From: Gammaproteobacteria bacterium
GTDB lineage: Bacteria > Pseudomonadota > Gammaproteobacteria > SZUA-229
Direction of reading: 5' to 3'
Length of the DNA: 49,847 nucleotides
Assembly: GCA_026195895.1 (NCBI GenBank)
Contig: JAPHRO010000054.1
Span: forward strand, 1-49,847
The position numbers were made by a program, and so were the translations under genes. This document shows positions 4,585 through 36,102 of the stretch, piece by piece; position 1 is the first letter of the stretch, and every line of letters begins with the position of its first letter. The notes beneath the pieces are model-generated. The model was not told where the DNA came from and made no database searches. It saw only the letters and a list, made by a program, of their open reading frames with translations.

Positions 4585-5325
4585 ATGGATAAAATGTTAT
4601 TTATCGCCATGAATGGAGCCAGGCAATCAATGCAGGCTCAAACCAATATTAGCCATAATCTGGCGAATGCAAATACAGTTGGCTTTAAATCGCATTTCAA
4701 TACTTTTGCTAACTGGCATGTGGAAGGCCCGGGTTTTAATACCCGGGTGTACAACCAGCAGATTGGCAAAGAAGTTAATTTACAGTCCGGTAGTTTTATA
4801 ACCACCAAACGGGATCTTGATGTTGCCGTTCAGGGTGATGGCTGGATTGCCGTGCAGGATAATAATGGTAAAGAAGCCTATACCAAAGCCGGTGATTTGA
4901 GACTGGATCAAAATGGTTTTTTAACCACGGGTACTGGATATTCTGTAATTGGTAATTCAGGACCTATTGTTATTCCGCCTGCACAAAAAATTGAAATTGG
5001 AGCCGATGGTTCAATTAGTGTTATTCCTGTTGGCCAGAGTGCCGACTCGATGGCAATAACCGACCGCATAAAACTGGTGAGGTTAGATGCGGATGACATC
5101 GAAAAAAATGCAGATGGTTTAATGCAGTCAAAAACCGGTGAGCCGGCACAATTAGCTGCTGATGTAACACTGGCTTCAGGTGTTATTGAAACCAGCAATG
5201 TTAATCCGGTGGCCGAATTAATTGAACTTATTCAAAATGCAAGACAGTTCGAAGCGAACGTTAAATTAATGAAAACGGCACAGGAAAACGATGAAGTTTC
5301 TTCACGTTTATTAAGAAATAGTTAA
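4585..5325 (+). CDS. flgF: Flagellar rod protein FlgF
   Basis: FlgF is a proximal rod component, related to FlgG and FlgE. The 246 residues match the family. The conserved N-terminus is seen as [20 protein letters not shown] and [13 protein letters not shown], and the C-terminal axial motif as [20 protein letters not shown]. The internal FlgE/F/G core motif ([20 protein letters not shown]) lies around residues 80-100. It lies between flgE and flgG, as in most proteobacteria. Confidence 0.95.
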
Positions 5326-5351
5326 CTAAGGTATTAAGCAGGAGATACAAC

Positions 5352-6137
5352 ATGAATCCCGCACTCTGGATTTCGAAAACAGGTTTAGATGCACAGCAAA
5401 CACGTTTGTCAGTTATCTCCAATAACCTGGCTAATGTGAATACCACCGGTTTCAAAAGAGATCAGGCAGTATTTCAGGATTTAATTTATCAAAATATTAA
5501 ACAGTCGGGTGGTCAGACATCGGAAGATACACAATCACCTTCTGGTCTGTCTATCGGTACGGGCGTGCGGGTAGTGGCGACTGAAAAACTACATACCCAG
5601 GGTAATCTGGTGCAAACGGGAAACCCGCTGGATATGGCGGTACAGGGGCGTGGCTTTTTCCAGATATTAAAGCCTGATGGTACGCTGTCTTATACTCGTG
5701 ATGGTTCTTTTCAGATTGATGCCGATGGTCAGGTGGTCACGGCGAAAGGTTATCAGTTGCAGCCTGCAATCAGTATTCCGTCAAATGCGCAAAGTATTAC
5801 TATTGGTGATGATGGTATTGTTAGTGTGGTGGTAGGTACCAATGCAACACCTACCCAGGTGGGCAATATTCAAACTGCTGACTTTATTAATCCCACCGGC
5901 CTGCAACCTGTCGGCGATAATTTATTTCTTGAAACTGCATCCAGTGGTTCACCTCAAACCGGTACGCCAGGTCTCAATGGACTCGGTGCCATTACCAGTG
6001 GCGCAGTAGAAACATCCAACGTCAATGTGGTTGAAGAACTGGTGAATATGATTGAAACACAACGTGCTTATGAAATGAATTCAAAAGTAATTTCGACAAC
6101 GGATCAAATGTTGCAGTTTGTAAGTAATAACCTGTAG
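5352..6137 (+). CDS. flgG: Flagellar distal rod protein FlgG
   Basis: FlgG builds the distal rod that passes through the L and P rings. The 261 residues are the near-universal length for FlgG. Hallmarks are the N-terminus [20 protein letters not shown] with [17 protein letters not shown], the core [13 protein letters not shown] and the C-terminal [20 protein letters not shown]. The ATG is preceded by GCAGGAGATACAAC, a strong AGGAG site. flgH follows after 33 nt. Confidence 0.96.
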
Positions 6138-6170: not shown

Positions 6171-6857
6171 ATGATGCATTTGTTCAAAACAGTTTTTAAG
6201 TGTCTTGGTGTAATGATGGTTGTTGTGGCGGCTGGCTGTGCAACAACACCGCCTGAACTATCGGATTTTGAACCGATAGTAAGGCCGGTTGCACCCCCCA
6301 AGCCAAACTACAATAATGGCTCTTTATTTCAGCCGCGAAGCATCTCTTTATTTGAAGATCCCAAGCCGTACCGTATTGGCGATGTGTTAACCATTCTGCT
6401 GGATGAAAGCACCAGCGCCAGTAAAAATGCTGCAACGACAACAAGTAAAGAAGATGAAGTCACCATGGCTGCACCCACCATATTTGGTCGGCCAGTGACG
6501 CGTAATGGCGACAATCTTTTCGAAATGAATCTGGCTCCTGAACGTGAATTTTCCGGTGAAGGAGACAGTAGTCAAAGCAATAGCCTGAAAGGTGAAATCA
6601 CCGTAACCGTGGTCGATATTTTGCCCAATGGTAATTTAGTCGTGCAGGGGGAAAAGTGGTTTACTTTAAATCAGGGTAAAGAATATATCCGCATTGCCGG
6701 CGTCATCAGGCCACAGGATGTGAAATCTGATAATACCCTGAAGTCTTCCAAACTGGCGGATGCGCAGATTGCCTATAGTGGCGAAGGTTTTATTGCTGAC
6801 AGCAATACCCAGGGCTGGTTTACACAATTCCTGAATAGCAAGTGGTGGCCGTTCTAA
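6171..6857 (+). CDS. flgH: Flagellar L-ring lipoprotein FlgH
   Basis: FlgH forms the L ring, a bushing in the outer membrane. The 228 residues include a lipoprotein signal peptide with lipobox VVAAGC, so the mature protein should start at a lipidated Cys near residue 23. Family motifs are SLFEDPKPYRIGDVLTILLD, then GEITVTVVDILPNGNLVVQG and the GVIRPQDV stretch. Two tandem ATGs (6171 and 6174) are possible starts; the AAGGTG at 6162-6167 is better spaced for 6174. It is the last gene of the flgB operon, closed by the terminator at 6885. Confidence 0.95.
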   Translation: MMHLFKTVFKCLGVMMVVVAAGCATTPPELSDFEPIVRPVAPPKPNYNNGSLFQPRSISLFEDPKPYRIGDVLTILLDESTSASKNAATTTSKEDEVTMAAPTIFGRPVTRNGDNLFEMNLAPEREFSGEGDSSQSNSLKGEITVTVVDILPNGNLVVQGEKWFTLNQGKEYIRIAGVIRPQDVKSDNTLKSSKLADAQIAYSGEGFIADSNTQGWFTQFLNSKWWPF

Positions 6858-28457: not shown

Positions 28458-28502
28458 CCTGCATAGTTGTACAGAAACCATGGCAACACAGGTGCAATAA
28501 CG

Positions 28503-29735
28503 ATGGAAATGACTCAACCGCTCCGTTTGCAGGCTACGGCAACGCAACAATTAGCAACAACCGGTGATAATAATCAGCAGCAGGCCTCCGCGGGTGCTGG
28601 ATTTGATGAGCATTTATCTGAGCAGATCGATCGCGCTGAATCTGCAAACACCAGCGAAGAAGCAAAAAATACCGAATTAAATCAGGAAGATAACGAAACC
28701 ATTGTGGCCCGGGAAGGCGAATCGGTGGAACCGGAAGTCACGCCGGAGGAGCTGGCCGATGCAGCTATACTGCAGCAATCAGATACGCATTTGCTGGCGC
28801 TGCAGCCCGATGAATCGGCAGCAGATAACCCTGATGAAACAAACGATTCACAGCACCAGTTGATGCCGCCCGCTGGCAATGGCTTGCCGCCTGTAGCCAG
28901 TCAGCCTGGTCAGCCGTTACCGGCTCAGCCAGCTGTTGCCATTGTTGCAAATCAGTTACCGCAGTCGGTGGCTGCTGAGCAGACTGGCGCTGGCGCTATT
29001 TCGCTACAGCAGCCGGATGCAGGTAAACTGACGCAAACTAATCTGAATCAGACCCAGGCTGTCGCGGAAGAAATTAGCAAATTTGATAATACTGAAAAAT
29101 TTGTGCCGCCCGAATTTAGATTGCAAATGAAAAACGAAGTGCAAAATACTGCCCAGAATACGCAGCATAATGTGGCCTCAACCGTTGCCTCAGCAGCGGC
29201 GCTTGCCAGCAGTTTGCAGCAGGTGCCGGTTAGTACCGCTATTGCTTCTATTAATGCGCCGTCTGCCACAGCGATGGGTGATGTGTCTTTTACCAGTCTG
29301 TCTGGCTTAAATTCGAGCATCGCGACGCCGCTACAAAACCCGGGCTGGTCGAACAGTATTGCTGAACGGATTAGCTGGATGATTAACGGTAATTTTCAGC
29401 ATGCAGAACTCAAATTAAATCCCGCGCATCTGGGGCCGCTGGAGATCAAACTGGCGATAAACGATGATCAGGCATCGGTGAGTTTTGTCACCGCACATGC
29501 GCCAGTGCGTGAAGCACTGGATGTGGCCATGCCCCGCTTACGAGAAATGCTGGAACAGCAGGGACTGAATCTCGCTGATGTCGATGTATCGCAATATTCA
29601 GATGCAGAAAGCGAGCAGGCAGACCAGTCAACAGATCAGGATATGAGGGGCGATGCCGAGCTTGCTGCAGCCGATCAAATGAAAGAAACGATGATTTCTA
29701 TTGATGTGAATTCGGGTGTGAGTATTTATGCCTGA
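28503..29735 (+). CDS. fliK: Flagellar hook-length control protein FliK
   Basis: FliK measures the hook and triggers the switch to filament export. The product has 410 residues. The first ~290 form a low-complexity Gln/Ala/Glu/Thr-rich ruler region. The C-terminal switch domain (about 290-375) carries WSNSIAERISWMINGNFQHA with ELKLNPAHLGPLEIKLAIND and the REMLEQQGLNLADVDVS ending typical of the Flg_hook domain. The ATG at 28503 has AGGTG 8 nt ahead; the upstream GTG-type start at 28467 overlaps the promoter area. The genes normally next (fliLMNOPQR) are not present. Confidence 0.93.
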   Translation: MEMTQPLRLQATATQQLATTGDNNQQQASAGAGFDEHLSEQIDRAESANTSEEAKNTELNQEDNETIVAREGESVEPEVTPEELADAAILQQSDTHLLALQPDESAADNPDETNDSQHQLMPPAGNGLPPVASQPGQPLPAQPAVAIVANQLPQSVAAEQTGAGAISLQQPDAGKLTQTNLNQTQAVAEEISKFDNTEKFVPPEFRLQMKNEVQNTAQNTQHNVASTVASAAALASSLQQVPVSTAIASINAPSATAMGDVSFTSLSGLNSSIATPLQNPGWSNSIAERISWMINGNFQHAELKLNPAHLGPLEIKLAINDDQASVSFVTAHAPVREALDVAMPRLREMLEQQGLNLADVDVSQYSDAESEQADQSTDQDMRGDAELAAADQMKETMISIDVNSGVSIYA

Positions 29736-30059
29736 TTTTTTATAAACAGTTACTGCTTTTTTTATCCAGTGAATCGTAAACTTATTTTAATATTGAGTAA
29801 TCGGTAGATATTGATTAAAGAACTCGCAAGCTACAGAGCACGTCTACTATAGGCAACAGATGAAGAGGGAAGTAGTAATACAGGAATTATTGTTGTCAGG
29901 AATATTATAAACATCGGTGGGCTGGTAATAACAAAAGATTTTAATTTCATAGCTTTTTCAAATAGTCAGACCCTATATCCGTAATAGACACTCAATGAAA
30001 CGAGTATAAGAATAGTTCGGGTGGATTTAGCGTTTGCAGCGGTTTTATTCGACAATGTC
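29736..30059. other. 324-nt spacer between fliK and a convergent gene
   Basis: This A/T-rich stretch between converging genes has short T runs at 29736-29762 that could aid termination of fliK, but no convincing hairpin. I see no gene, repeat or promoter in it. It marks the point where the flagellar cluster stops. Confidence 0.5.
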
Positions 30060-31211
30060 TTAATAGTTTTCCGGGCTAAACGCGGGTTTTATTGCGATAC
30101 CCCAGGCTTCGTTACAGTCCAGTTGATTGGCCAGTAGAATTTCCTCCGGGTATTCAATATCCGCAGCGATCAGTGATATTTGTTGTTTCTTATAGGGTGT
30201 CAGTAGTCGCTTAAACCATTCAATATCAACGCTATCATCCGATATATTGGCCAGGGCATGGTGAATCATGGGTATGTTCAGCTCGATTGAATTGCAGCGA
30301 TTTTTCAATAGATAATTCAATGAGTGCAGCGAAAAACTGAACTGAGAAATAGTGATGCTTACCGGCAGCTCGGCCAGGCGGCTATAAAGCTGGCGGCTAA
30401 CAGGGTCATGTAAGTAATTTTCATTAATGATGAGTTCCAGTGATTTAATATCTATTCCTGTTTCAGGAACTATATTTCTGATCATGTCGACATAATATTG
30501 GGGGTTATCAATAAAAGGAAACACCGGCAATATCAGCCTGTCGGTAATCAGTCCTTTATTTTTAAGCTGTTTGAAGTTGAGGCAGGCGCCTAGCATCAGA
30601 TTCTTGATGGCTTTTAATGATAAGGGTGTGGCACATTGTGGATTAATCAGCGGACGAGCTTCGGAGCCGAAATGAATAAACTGTGCTTCAACAGCAACGA
30701 TGCTTTCATCACTTAGTTTAATTCGAGGTCGGAAAAGCAGCCGGTATTTATTCTGCTCGATTTGCGATTCGAGTGAGTTTTCAGCCTGCCGCTGGGCAGA
30801 CTGGTTAAATTGTAATGTTCTGCCGATGCGGTGTTTCAGCACAGACCAGTTGATGGGCTTGGTGATATAGTCATCGGCACCAAAGCGAAACGCCTGTTCC
30901 ACTGACGGATCGTCATCCAGGGAGGTGATCATGATAACGGGAATTTCAGGGTATTTTTGCTTGATGATATTACAGGTAACGAAACCATCCTGTTCCGGCA
31001 TGATAGCGTCCAGTAAAACAAGATTGGGTTTGTGTTTTTCAACCAGGTCCAGGGCTTCCCGTCCATCTGAGGCTTCAAGCGCCTGATAGCGTTCCTTGAC
31101 GATGATATGGTGCAGCATCAACCGTATAGAAGGGTCATCGTCAGCAATAATGATGAGTGGTACATCGGGATCGATGGAGGGGGTATCACGTTGAGATCCG
31201 TGGATTGGCAT
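30060..31211 (-). CDS. Response regulator with degenerate EAL domain
   Basis: The 383-residue protein has an N-terminal receiver domain (about 18-135) with phosphoacceptor Asp68 in LVLLDAIMPEQDG and Lys in YITKPIN. It is followed by a C-terminal domain with the outline of an EAL phosphodiesterase: the opening position reads SIVAVEAQFIHFG in place of the EAL-L-R-W stretch, the next metal-binding region reads ELIINENYLHD, and the end reads AWGIAIKPAF where active enzymes have QGY. The catalytic residues therefore look lost and it is probably a c-di-GMP-binding or purely protein-interacting module. AGGA lies 7 nt before the ATG. It is transcribed away from the cheA relic and the STAS gene. Confidence 0.8.
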   Translation of the reverse strand: MPIHGSQRDTPSIDPDVPLIIIADDDPSIRLMLHHIIVKERYQALEASDGREALDLVEKHKPNLVLLDAIMPEQDGFVTCNIIKQKYPEIPVIMITSLDDDPSVEQAFRFGADDYITKPINWSVLKHRIGRTLQFNQSAQRQAENSLESQIEQNKYRLLFRPRIKLSDESIVAVEAQFIHFGSEARPLINPQCATPLSLKAIKNLMLGACLNFKQLKNKGLITDRLILPVFPFIDNPQYYVDMIRNIVPETGIDIKSLELIINENYLHDPVSRQLYSRLAELPVSITISQFSFSLHSLNYLLKNRCNSIELNIPMIHHALANISDDSVDIEWFKRLLTPYKKQQISLIAADIEYPEEILLANQLDCNEAWGIAIKPAFSPENY

Positions 31212-31368
31212 GCCTGCATCCTGTGCAACGTTATTTGAATTTAAAGTGTAGTTGGTTAATTCTGGATATCAATGCCGTTGATCATATCTGCTGAGGCTGT
31301 TTTTTAGATCAGGATTTAAAAAAATTAATGCATACTAGGCAGGATTTTTCTGAGTGATACTTTATCTG

Positions 31369-31686
31369 CATGGTGATATCTCGAAGATGTGCCGGCTGAT
31401 CGTATCACAGCAGGTAAAGATGAAACTGCTATTATTAGTTTAAATACCTGCTACAAAGTCGGCAATATCGTCATTGAAACAATCGATGAGGGCAAAGGTA
31501 CTGATCCAGGTGCGGTGTTAGGAAAAACGATTATAAAAGGTCTGGTGTCTGCAGGTGACAATCTAACTAACTGGCCAGCAAATCAATGATCTTATTTTTC
31601 AGCCTGGATTTTCAACCGTTAAGGTGATTGCTGATGTTGCTGGTCAAGGCGTTGATATGGATGCAGGTGAAATTGAATTGTTTTAA
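31369..31686 (+). pseudogene. cheA: Remnant of chemotaxis kinase CheA (ATP-binding domain)
   Basis: Two frames together spell out part of the CheA ATPase domain. The first (31377-31570) reads LEDVPADRITAGKDETAII, GNIVIETIDEGKG (N-box partner and a damaged G1 box, normally DDGAG) and KTIIKGLVSAGDN. After a frameshift near 31570-31576 the other frame reads QQINDLIFQPGFSTVKVIAD and VAGQGVDMDAGEIELF then stops, equivalent to the LIFAPGFST and GRGVGMDVV motifs of CheA. A further shift lies near 31375, where His-Gly of the DHGIE motif is out of frame. The rest of CheA is absent on both sides. No protein should be made. A 66-codon open frame here is part of this relic. Confidence 0.85.
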
Positions 31687-31706: not shown

Positions 31707-32012
31707 ATGAGTATTTCAGTGGATGTGTCAGGTGACAAAAAACAGGTAAGGTTAAAAATAAGTGGACGGTTTGATTTTAGTTTACATAATGAATTCCGGA
31801 AAGCTTATAAAGATATAGGTATAACGGGTGGGGAATATATTGTTGATCTTGGAACGACAGAATATCTCGATAGTTCAGCCCTGGGTATGCTGTTATTATT
31901 AAAAGAACATGCGGAGTCGGAATCGTCAAAGGTTAGGATAATTAACAGCAGTGGGGAAATACTGGAAATATTGCATATAGCCAGTTTTGATAAATTATTC
32001 ACACTGGCTTAA
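31707..32012 (+). CDS. STAS-domain anti-sigma factor antagonist, HsbA-like
   Basis: This 101-residue protein is a single STAS domain of the SpoIIAA type. The phosphorylation site region TEYLDSSALGMLLLLKEHA (Ser56 or Ser57) is intact. In Pseudomonas aeruginosa HsbA, encoded beside cheR-cheV and the response regulator HsbR, binds the anti-sigma factor FlgM and modulates motility and biofilm. Its position 20 nt before an HsbR-like gene supports the same pairing here. A strong AGGAG ribosome binding site lies 8 nt before the ATG. No flgM gene is in the window, so the target is not shown. Confidence 0.85.
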   Translation: MSISVDVSGDKKQVRLKISGRFDFSLHNEFRKAYKDIGITGGEYIVDLGTTEYLDSSALGMLLLLKEHAESESSKVRIINSSGEILEILHIASFDKLFTLA

Positions 32013-32031: not shown

Positions 32032-33717
32032 ATGTCTGCAAAAGTAACGGTTTTAATTGTTGATGATGATCTCACTAATCGCCTGGTGTTGCGCGCTATT
32101 TTAAAAGAAACGGGTTTTGAAATGCTGGAAGCTGAAAATGGTGAACAGGCAATCGAAATTTTTGATCGAGTCCGTATTGATATTGTATTGCTCGATGTGA
32201 TGATGCCGGTAATGGATGGCTATCAGGCGGCAAAATTAATAAAAACACGATCTACGCGTTTTATACCCATTATTTTTCTTACGGCATTAACAGATGAAAA
32301 AGCACTAGCCAGATGTATTGAGGCCGGCGGCGATGATTTTTTAACTAAACCATATAATCACATTATTTTGCGTGCCAAAATCGATGCCTTGTTACGCATC
32401 AATGATTTATACAAAAAAATTAGCATACAAAATGAAGAGCTTAATAAACACAATATTCGCATCCAGCAGGAAATCAATGTTGCTAAAAAAGTTTTTGGCA
32501 ATGTGTTGAATCCAGATATTAAAGATTCTGTTACTGGATTACGCTATTCAATGTCATCAATGTCGATATTTAATGGCGATATGATTTTAGCCGACAGAAA
32601 TAAAACAGATGGCATGGATGTTTTGATTAGTGATTTTACCGGGCATGGCTTATCAGCCGCTATTGGTTCGATTCCTGTCGCAGATATATTTTATACTATG
32701 ACCCGTAAAGGGTTTTCATTTACAGAAACCCTGGCCGAGATAAATAATAAACTTTATAAGTTATTGCCGACTCAGATGTTTATGGCGGCAGCGTTGATAA
32801 GTATTGATCGAGAAAATAACGTAGTATCTGTTGTTAACTGTGGCCTGCCTGATTTACATATGATCCGGGGCACAGAAATAATCAAAGAACTTAAATCTCA
32901 GAATATTCCATTAGGCATAGTTAAACAAACGCCTGATAAGTTTGATGTGGAAATGCAGTCAATCCAGTATGAGGATCGAATATTAGCTGCAACTGACGGC
33001 ATTATGGAAGCCGAGAACCGTCAGGGAGAACTGTATGGCAAAGAGCGGATATTAGACAGCGTTCGGTTTGCTAAAAAACCCGATCATCTATTCGATAAAA
33101 TACTCAATGATTGCCTTGAATTTTCTAAAGAGACTGAGCAAAGTGATGATATTACCCTGCTGGAATTGTGCCATCTTAAACATGTAAAGTATCAAATAAA
33201 AAATGATGTGCAGCAAATGATGAAGCCGGCAGAATGGTCGATGCAATTTAGCCTGGATATAGATAGCCTGCGTAATTTTGATATATTACCGTACATTATG
33301 CAGGGCGTGAATGGCTTGCAATCTATTCCCAATGGACGTTCAACAGTGCATACCATTCTTACCGAAATTTTTGCCAATGCACTGGATCATGGTGTGTTAG
33401 GGCTCGATTCAAATATGAAAACTACCCCTGATGGATATATGAACTTTTATATGGAAAAAAATCAGCGACTTGAAACCATAGAAGAAGGCAATATTCAGAT
33501 AATTTTAAATCACGAAACCAAAGAGACCGGTGGCGGCCGGTTGACTATTTATGTGTGTGATAGCGGTCCAGGGTTCGATTTTTCTAAATCACAGGTATCG
33601 ATGGAAAATAATGAAGGCTTCTCCGGGCGCGGTCTTGCAATGATTAAACATCTCTGTACCGAGGTAAAGTTTCTGGGTAAAGGCAACGCTATAATGGCTA
33701 CTTATGAATGGGGCTAG
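32032..33717 (+). CDS. HsbR-like receiver/PP2C phosphatase/kinase protein
   Basis: The 561 residues hold three domains: a receiver (1-125, Asp55 in IVLLDVMMPVMDG, Lys in FLTKPY), a SpoIIE/PP2C phosphatase (about 165-385; GDMILADRNKTDGMDVLISD and DFTGHGLSAAIG with metal-binding Asp residues, later AATDGIMEAEN and SDDITLLEL) and a C-terminal HATPase of the anti-sigma kinase type (TEIFANALDHGVLG, CDSGPGFDFS, GRGLAMIKHL). This architecture is that of P. aeruginosa HsbR, which phosphorylates and dephosphorylates HsbA. It would set the phosphorylation state of the adjacent STAS protein. The two genes are 19 nt apart. Confidence 0.87.
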   Translation: MSAKVTVLIVDDDLTNRLVLRAILKETGFEMLEAENGEQAIEIFDRVRIDIVLLDVMMPVMDGYQAAKLIKTRSTRFIPIIFLTALTDEKALARCIEAGGDDFLTKPYNHIILRAKIDALLRINDLYKKISIQNEELNKHNIRIQQEINVAKKVFGNVLNPDIKDSVTGLRYSMSSMSIFNGDMILADRNKTDGMDVLISDFTGHGLSAAIGSIPVADIFYTMTRKGFSFTETLAEINNKLYKLLPTQMFMAAALISIDRENNVVSVVNCGLPDLHMIRGTEIIKELKSQNIPLGIVKQTPDKFDVEMQSIQYEDRILAATDGIMEAENRQGELYGKERILDSVRFAKKPDHLFDKILNDCLEFSKETEQSDDITLLELCHLKHVKYQIKNDVQQMMKPAEWSMQFSLDIDSLRNFDILPYIMQGVNGLQSIPNGRSTVHTILTEIFANALDHGVLGLDSNMKTTPDGYMNFYMEKNQRLETIEEGNIQIILNHETKETGGGRLTIYVCDSGPGFDFSKSQVSMENNEGFSGRGLAMIKHLCTEVKFLGKGNAIMATYEWG

Positions 33718-34638: not shown

Positions 34639-36102
34639 TTAAAGAACAGGCGGCAGGATAGAAAAAGCGTCATGTGCGGGTTCTTCTTGCTGAACGTTTT
34701 TGGCTAACTGATAATTTAACAGGTCGTAGTAGCGTCGAATGCCTTCAACATAGCGCACCGGCTCCCAGCCCCTGGCATAACCGAATTTGGTTTTTTTGTA
34801 CCATTTTTTTTGTGACAGCAAGGGCAGGGTGGTTTTCAGGTCTATCCATTTGTTCGGATCTTTGCCCTGTTGAATAGCGATTTTCCTGGCATCTAATACG
34901 TGATAGTAGCCCACATTATAAGCAGCCATGGCAAACCAGGTTCGGTCAGGCTCTTTGATATCTTCAGGGAAACGGGCACTAATCTGGGCCAGGTATTTCG
35001 CACCGCCAAAAATACTGCTTTTGGGATCCAGGCGATTTTTTATGCCGAGCTGGCCTGCGGTTTTTCGAGTCAGCATCATGATGCCGCGCACACCCGTGGG
35101 AGAAACGGCGCGGGGATTCCAGTGGGATTCCTGGTAGCCCATCGCGGCCAGTAATTTCCAGTCCAGCTTATATTTTTTTGCAGCTTGCTGGTATAAGTCC
35201 TGGTATTTGCTGAGTCGTGTTGCAATGTGACGCACGTAGATGCGATTGCCAACATAATCGAATTTGGATACATGGCCATAATGGCGTTCGATTAATTGTG
35301 TGATGTCACCGTTATTCAGGCTGCGCCAGAAGAAGCTCATTGCTTTGTCGTAGAGGCTGGAATCCTTAGTGATGGGGAATGCCCAGGCCAGTTGCCTGGG
35401 TTCTGATATATCGAAGGCAGCCCGCAGTTCCAGCATGAATCGCTGGTTCATCTTAAGCTCATTCGAATCCGCGATGGTGTAATCAATGATTTTATTTTCG
35501 ACTAGCTGCAATAGCTCTTCGCTTTCCATGTCATTGTGTTCTTTCCAGCTCAGGCCCGGATATTTCTTTTTCAGTTTTTTCAGACTTTCCACATGACTGG
35601 AACCGGCAACCACTTCCAGGTTGCCCAATGCCAGATCTTCAATGGATTCTGGCTTTTTATCCTGATTGTGATAAATCAGTTTTTCAGTGATTTCCTGGTA
35701 ACTTGCGGTGAAACGTACCCGCTGTTTGCGCGATTCGGTAATGGTTAATCCGGCAGCGGCAAAGTGGGCTTTGCCATTGTCCAGCATGTCAAAAATATCC
35801 TGCAGGTTGTCGGGAGTGATAATTTTTAATTTGACGCCCAGAGAGTCCGCAAATTTTTTGACCAGCTCATATTCGAAACCGGTCGGGCCCTGCGCGCCTT
35901 CATAGTAGGTGGTGGGGCTGTTGCGGCTGATAACCACCAGTTCACCACTTTGCTGCACCTGCTTCAACAGGTTCGGTTTGAATAGCAGCGGGACGCCCTC
36001 AAAAATCAGCACGATGATGGCGGCTAGCGTAATGAGGGACGATGCCATGGTGCGGCAGCGTGGATTGGTCAGTGGATTGGGCAACTCAGAGGTCTTTCTC
36101 AA
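34639..36102 (-). CDS. mltF: Membrane-bound lytic murein transglycosylase F
   Basis: MltF cleaves peptidoglycan glycan strands and is anchored at the envelope. The 487 residues comprise an N-terminal hydrophobic segment (about 19-40), a periplasmic solute-binding (SBP_bac_3-like) domain from GELVVISRNSPTTYYEGAQG to about residue 290, and a C-terminal SLT domain with the catalytic Glu in AAMGYQESHWNPRAVSPTG, then GIMMLT and AMAAYNVGYYH. The start may be at the codon given or at the Met at residue 19 (MASSLITLAAIIVL). The gene ends 6 nt from the end of the convergent membrane-protein gene. Confidence 0.93.
   Translation of the reverse strand: MRKTSELPNPLTNPRCRTMASSLITLAAIIVLIFEGVPLLFKPNLLKQVQQSGELVVISRNSPTTYYEGAQGPTGFEYELVKKFADSLGVKLKIITPDNLQDIFDMLDNGKAHFAAAGLTITESRKQRVRFTASYQEITEKLIYHNQDKKPESIEDLALGNLEVVAGSSHVESLKKLKKKYPGLSWKEHNDMESEELLQLVENKIIDYTIADSNELKMNQRFMLELRAAFDISEPRQLAWAFPITKDSSLYDKAMSFFWRSLNNGDITQLIERHYGHVSKFDYVGNRIYVRHIATRLSKYQDLYQQAAKKYKLDWKLLAAMGYQESHWNPRAVSPTGVRGIMMLTRKTAGQLGIKNRLDPKSSIFGGAKYLAQISARFPEDIKEPDRTWFAMAAYNVGYYHVLDARKIAIQQGKDPNKWIDLKTTLPLLSQKKWYKKTKFGYARGWEPVRYVEGIRRYYDLLNYQLAKNVQQEEPAHDAFSILPPVL

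Follow-up and report, generated by a model that had tools for sequence, protein, structure and literature searches.

The sequence between fliK and a pair of genes for a STAS protein and an HsbR-like protein in a gammaproteobacterium is almost certainly the scar left by the loss of a stage 1 F7 chemosensory cluster. The stretch analysed, here called the window, comprises 49,847 nucleotides of the forward strand of contig JAPHRO010000054.1 (assembly GCA_026195895.1, Gammaproteobacteria bacterium, SZUA-229) and belongs to a draft genome of 84 contigs that is 99% complete. The stage 1 F7 cluster is known from gamma-proteobacteria (Vibrio cholerae, Methylomicrobium alcaliphilum) and, in the study describing it, always co-occurs with an F6 system (Ortega et al. 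2020, PMC7184735). In contrast to this published cluster, the window keeps only a scrap of cheA, the tail of an mcpA-like gene and the last two genes. The loss is of an ordinary kind and concerns a known system, and its breakpoints are unusually readable.

The left flank of the lost cluster is fliK (28467..29735, forward strand), a neighbour that is conserved in the related genomes G014, G002, G011 and G061. It is followed by a reversed gene for a response regulator with an EAL-like domain (30060..31211, reverse strand), the cheA remnant, the STAS gene (31707..32012, forward strand), the HsbR gene (32032..33717, forward strand), two small genes, a gene for an MltF-like transglycosylase (34639..36102, reverse strand), which forms the right flank conserved in G014, G022, G002 and G011, and XthA. 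The STAS gene is intact and encodes an anti-sigma-factor antagonist resembling HsbA and CrsA (Pfam STAS, 6e-10). The adjoining intact HsbR/CrsR-like protein combines a response regulator, a PP2C phosphatase and an HATPase (Response_reg, SpoIIE and HATPase_c_2 in Pfam) in one chain. Judged by its make-up, this pair is an HsbR/CrsR – HsbA/CrsA partner switch. The response regulator – EAL-like gene occupies the place where cheY and most of cheA would be expected; the most similar family gene lies at a contig end of G009 and is only 40% identical, and no close copy was found at the same place in the family. Inspection of its translation by eye shows a degenerate EAL-like domain with neither an EAL nor a DDFG motif. 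At the other end of the map, positions 1-698 of the window hold one part of a CheV gene whose other part ends contig C16 (L059 13666-14028); the two parts overlap by 32 identical residues, and the contigs probably join there.

What once stood at this place can be read from relatives. The same locus was located in other genomes of the family by means of HsbR-like proteins and was read together with its flanks. The locus of G014 reads fliJ, fliK, cheY, cheA, cheW, a PAS/HAMP receptor of 1054 aa, a further cheW, parA, a STAS-containing gene, cheR, cheD, cheB, a receptor of 401 aa with a hydrophobic stretch at its N-terminus, STAS, HsbR, MltF and XthA. G002 and G011 share this order from fliK to STAS, with the phosphatase HsbR missing there in G011, and G004 and G015 carry an insertion of three genes that separates fliK from cheY, while the remainder is broadly alike and the cluster again lies upstream of STAS/HsbR. 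The comparison of synteny proposed earlier thus bore out an intact cluster between fliK and STAS in G014, G002 and G011. In genes and order (cheY, cheA, two cheW, an aer2-like gene, cheR, cheD, cheB, an mcpA-like gene, STAS, serine phosphatase), these clusters agree with the published stage 1 F7 system (PMC7184735), in G011 minus the phosphatase. They differ from it by two additional central genes, parA and one that is ParC/STAS-like, and by their position directly after fliK. Because the intact cluster together with the pair corresponds to published stage 1 F7, the HsbA/HsbR-like genes of the window are the last two genes of an F7 cluster. As in the published case, an F6 system is present elsewhere in the window genome, on contig C45. 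An initial reading of the window from its letters alone (the sequence-only reading) had connected the loss of the operon with the point after fliK at which the flagellar genes break off. This link does not hold: relatives with an intact F7 cluster share the order of fliK followed by che genes, apart from the three-gene insertion in G004 and G015, and the stop of the flagellar cluster after fliK is, on the evidence of gene order, ancestral and older than the loss.

The remnant of cheA lies at 31386..31662 on the forward strand, where a three-frame translation contains CheA-like text spread over two frames. It corresponds approximately to residues 404-494 of the CheA of G014 and thus to a part of the ATP-binding domain. 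The ten best matches of the remnant among PDB chains (phmmer) are all CheA, with E-values of 6e-14 to 1e-10, and a frameshift-aware alignment with the cheA gene of G014 reached a score of 271 compared with at most 36 in 15 shuffles. A decayed CheA ATP-binding domain beside HsbA/HsbR-like genes, as first proposed, is therefore confirmed (best E-value 6e-14 over 31386-31662). Identity is 63% to the F7 CheA of G014 (666 aa) and ranges from 62 to 67% for G014 and G002. In a tree of CheA cores, the remnant groups with G014, G002 and G022 of the F7 operon (support 100/99; 91 residues, long end branch); by this placement it lies among F7 CheA, while with 91 residues its position inside the G014/G002/G022 group is loose.

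The damage to this gene is extensive. No N-box can be recognised, the G1 box has the sequence DEGKG where DDGKG is expected, and the G2 box (GQGVDMD) is truncated at the deletion point, in agreement with the nucleotide-binding motifs having been described as damaged from the outset. The Hpt (P1), dimerisation and CheW-like domains of a working CheA are missing, and the ATP-binding domain is only partial. At least two frameshifts had been claimed; one of them is certain, a tandem CTAACTAAC at ~31563-31571 that shifts the frame by +1. Near 31370-31385 a second frameshift is plausible, but its signal is weak, the score having been reached by 8 of 500 shuffles against G014 and by 67 of 500 against G022. 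A weak anchored signal at 31300..31385 (forward strand) may represent further decayed cheA from the N-box region and is not relied on here. Upstream, nothing recognisable is left in the window of the first 380-400 codons of cheA or of the whole of cheY, and when 29736-30059 and 31212-31385 were searched for traces of cheY or of the initial two thirds of cheA, no signal rose clearly above that of shuffles. At codon positions 1 and 2, the ratio between the remnant and its nearest intact relatives is 0.35-0.43, compared with 0.11-0.17 among the intact relatives at similar third-position divergence. This excess of change indicates relaxed constraint, as expected of a dead gene. Going by these features, the remnant is a pseudogene of an F7-class CheA without function and not a working kinase. 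A Pfam scan of the remnant gave no detection, and due to this the remnant would escape normal annotation.

Not all of the stretch from 31369 to 31686 that was originally assigned to cheA belongs to this gene: the assignment stands for 31386-31662, and 31663-31686 are the end of an mcpA-like gene. The homology to cheA stops on the 3' side at ATGGATG, past which only 5-6 of 21 bases match. From the word TTGATATGGATG at 31652..31663 (forward strand) on, the window corresponds to the end of the gene for the 401-aa, mcpA-like receptor, with 34 of 39 bases identical to G002 compared with 26 in the best of 200 shuffles, and positions 31663..31686 of the forward strand match its last seven codons and stop (AGEIELF-stop). 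The junction thus joins cheA near codon 493 to the final seven codons of the mcpA-like gene. The shorter word TATGGATG is identical in the cheA and mcpA-like genes of G014, G002 and G022. Measured against the intact clusters, the missing piece amounts to 10,171 bp with G014 and 10,119 bp with G002 as the ruler. The simplest account is one deletion between short words common to both genes, in which we infer that it happened in one step and by what mechanism; the same scar would be expected from a series of smaller deletions, or from a frameshift that preceded the big deletion. The ancestral junction sequence is that which we infer from the relatives. As another source of the scar tail, cheD, which also ends in xxIELF, was considered and rejected, since mcpA matches at 34 of 39 bases and cheD at 28, and since the GATATGGATG portion is specific to mcpA. 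Similar tails (GEIELF, DIELF, KIDLF, TELF) are found in CheD, in the mcpA-like receptor and, in other genera, in a protein of 184-194 aa after cheB (L046, L047, L048, L120, L123, L124, L125), which suggests a shared C-terminal docking motif.

The rest of the genome bears on whether the operon was lost or merely changed its place. CheD and the N-terminus (P1) of an F7 CheA are absent from the whole window genome (99% complete), which also holds no copy of the 401-aa mcpA-like receptor at 1e-25. Because these three are missing genome-wide, the F7 operon was lost and not moved. A relocation of the che operon within the genome, or the loss at this locus of a duplicate of the flagellar che operon, could draw on the presence of four other cheA-like genes, one of F6 type on C45 and three large ones on C54, C65 and C33 (gene names at these loci were assigned by order and similarity). 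However, none of the four is of F7 type, the best identity to the remnant being 38% compared with 62-67% for the F7 CheA of relatives. The operon on C45 (cheY-cheZ-cheA-cheB-mot-parA-cheW) is intact and of the F6 flagellar type, and F6-like CheA accompany F7 in relatives as well, so that we consider relocation or loss of a duplicate very unlikely. Searching the genome for an intact cheA, as had been proposed, thus yielded the F6 operon, but no N-terminus of an F7 CheA. Of the proposal that an ancestral or duplicate che operon was lost or moved from here, what stands is that a che operon was once present and was lost; it was F7 and not F6, neither moved nor a duplicate.

Three further explanations have, in our judgement, scarcely any probability. 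The genome is an 84-contig draft, and an assembly or sequencing error might hide a longer intact kinase; but the damage exceeds a stray base, comprising a 10-kb deletion with a clean junction and the disappearance of the whole N-terminus, with another gene in its place, and neither the genome-wide absence of cheD nor the excess of changes at codon positions 1 and 2 fits such an error. That a cheA core and an mcpA tail are all that is left could point to arrival of the remnant by horizontal transfer at a locus that never held a complete cluster. Against this, fliK on the left, STAS, HsbR, MltF and XthA on the right and both ends of the scar are arranged as in relatives that have the cluster intact, and the tree fits vertical descent. 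Finally, the open frame of 66 codons at 31389-31589, which retains ~60% identity to intact CheA, could be imagined to encode a working small protein, for example a peptide competing with CheA. It contains neither the N-box nor the G2 box, however, its sole start is a GTG inside the old domain, and the codon-position ratio of 0.35-0.43, compared with 0.11-0.17 among intact relatives, again speaks for relaxed constraint.

For the loss of the F7 cluster, we propose the following course. In an ancestor, a deletion of ~10 kb probably arose through pairing of the word TATGGATG present in both cheA and the mcpA-like gene. It would have eliminated the remainder of cheA, the two cheW genes, the aer2-like receptor, parA, the STAS gene beside it, cheR, cheD and cheB, along with almost the whole mcpA-like gene. 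With its CheW-binding domain gone and its G2 box cut, the kinase would have been dead at the moment of the deletion, and the remaining cheA sequence and cheY may later have decayed or been replaced. The STAS/HsbR partner switch would have been spared because the deletion ended within mcpA.

A second loss is visible in G023, whose congeners G004 and G015 retain the cluster. In G023, fliK is followed by ~1.2 kb of broken sequence, STAS and HsbR, and the broken stretch contains three pieces of an mcpA-like receptor in several frames (L049 reverse strand, ~4889-6121). CheD and the F7 CheA N-terminus are likewise absent from the G023 genome. Since remnants and breakpoints differ between G023 and the window genome, the F7 cluster was lost at least twice, and STAS/HsbR were retained both times. 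The two independent losses suggest that the STAS/HsbR switch is useful without the array.

The switch probably now receives its phosphoryl input from elsewhere. The window genome encodes a stand-alone HptB-like phosphotransfer protein on C27 (G000:C27, L206 reverse strand 6361-6792) with 31-32% identity to HptB-like proteins of hsbR loci, and, as a guess from its presence only, we hypothesize that this protein is a candidate for the input now driving HsbR. G015 and G023 encode it as well, next to the same genes; since G015 retains the F7 cluster, the HptB-like protein may already have provided a second input before the cluster disappeared. In Pseudomonas aeruginosa, HsbR is fed by HptB rather than by CheA (PMC6482189). 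The domain layout of HsbR and HsbA is the same in the window, and an HptB-like protein is present, but the window pair ends a deleted che cluster, hptB is not adjacent and the link to C27 is hypothetical. The Che1 locus of Shewanella oneidensis, with cheD and two receptors, encodes CrsR (receiver, phosphatase and anti-sigma) and CrsA (STAS), which control RpoS (PMC9855816). The make-up of this pair is that of the window pair; whereas the Shewanella locus is complete, the che part in the window is gone and the CrsA/CrsR-like pair alone is left. The che2 locus of S. oneidensis MR-1, which is interrupted by transposases (PMC9855816), is likewise a known case of an accessory chemosensory locus that decays in one lineage and has stayed intact in relatives; there transposases are involved, in contrast to the large deletion between short shared words in the window.

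The scar illustrates a way in which an accessory chemosensory system can vanish: a single large deletion at a short word that occurs twice can take the kinase array and leave the sigma-factor switch. Use of the switch without the array is relevant to how switches of the CrsR/HsbR type came apart from che genes in Pseudomonas. We tentatively speculate, while leaning slightly towards doubt, that repeated loss of the F7 array in this family, with the STAS/HsbR output module kept and rewired, for example to an HptB-like protein, represents a natural route from the che-linked Shewanella type to the HptB-fed Pseudomonas type.

A search of genome contigs with HsbR gave matches on a contig of the MAG G003 and in distant relatives, among them Oleispira, Oceanobacter, Chromatiaceae, Vibrio and Pseudomonas; the plasmid collection searched gave no match. 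Related clusters lie upstream of STAS/HsbR in Oleispira, Oceanobacter, Chromatiaceae, Ectothiorhodospira, a Thiotrichaceae MAG and Vibrio aestuarianus, and in Pseudomonas, Marinobacter and Gilvimarinus STAS, HsbR and an HptB-like gene, the last not in every case, are found between fliJ and fliK without che genes. Within the family, inspection by eye of G015 and G004 points to globin-like stretches (ETSFNLLAPRGEELVRRFYDELF) both in the receptor in the aer2 position (1068 and 948 aa, respectively) and in the ParC-like protein (L047 4665-7871 and 3624-4571), which suggests a globin-coupled F7 receptor in these two genomes.
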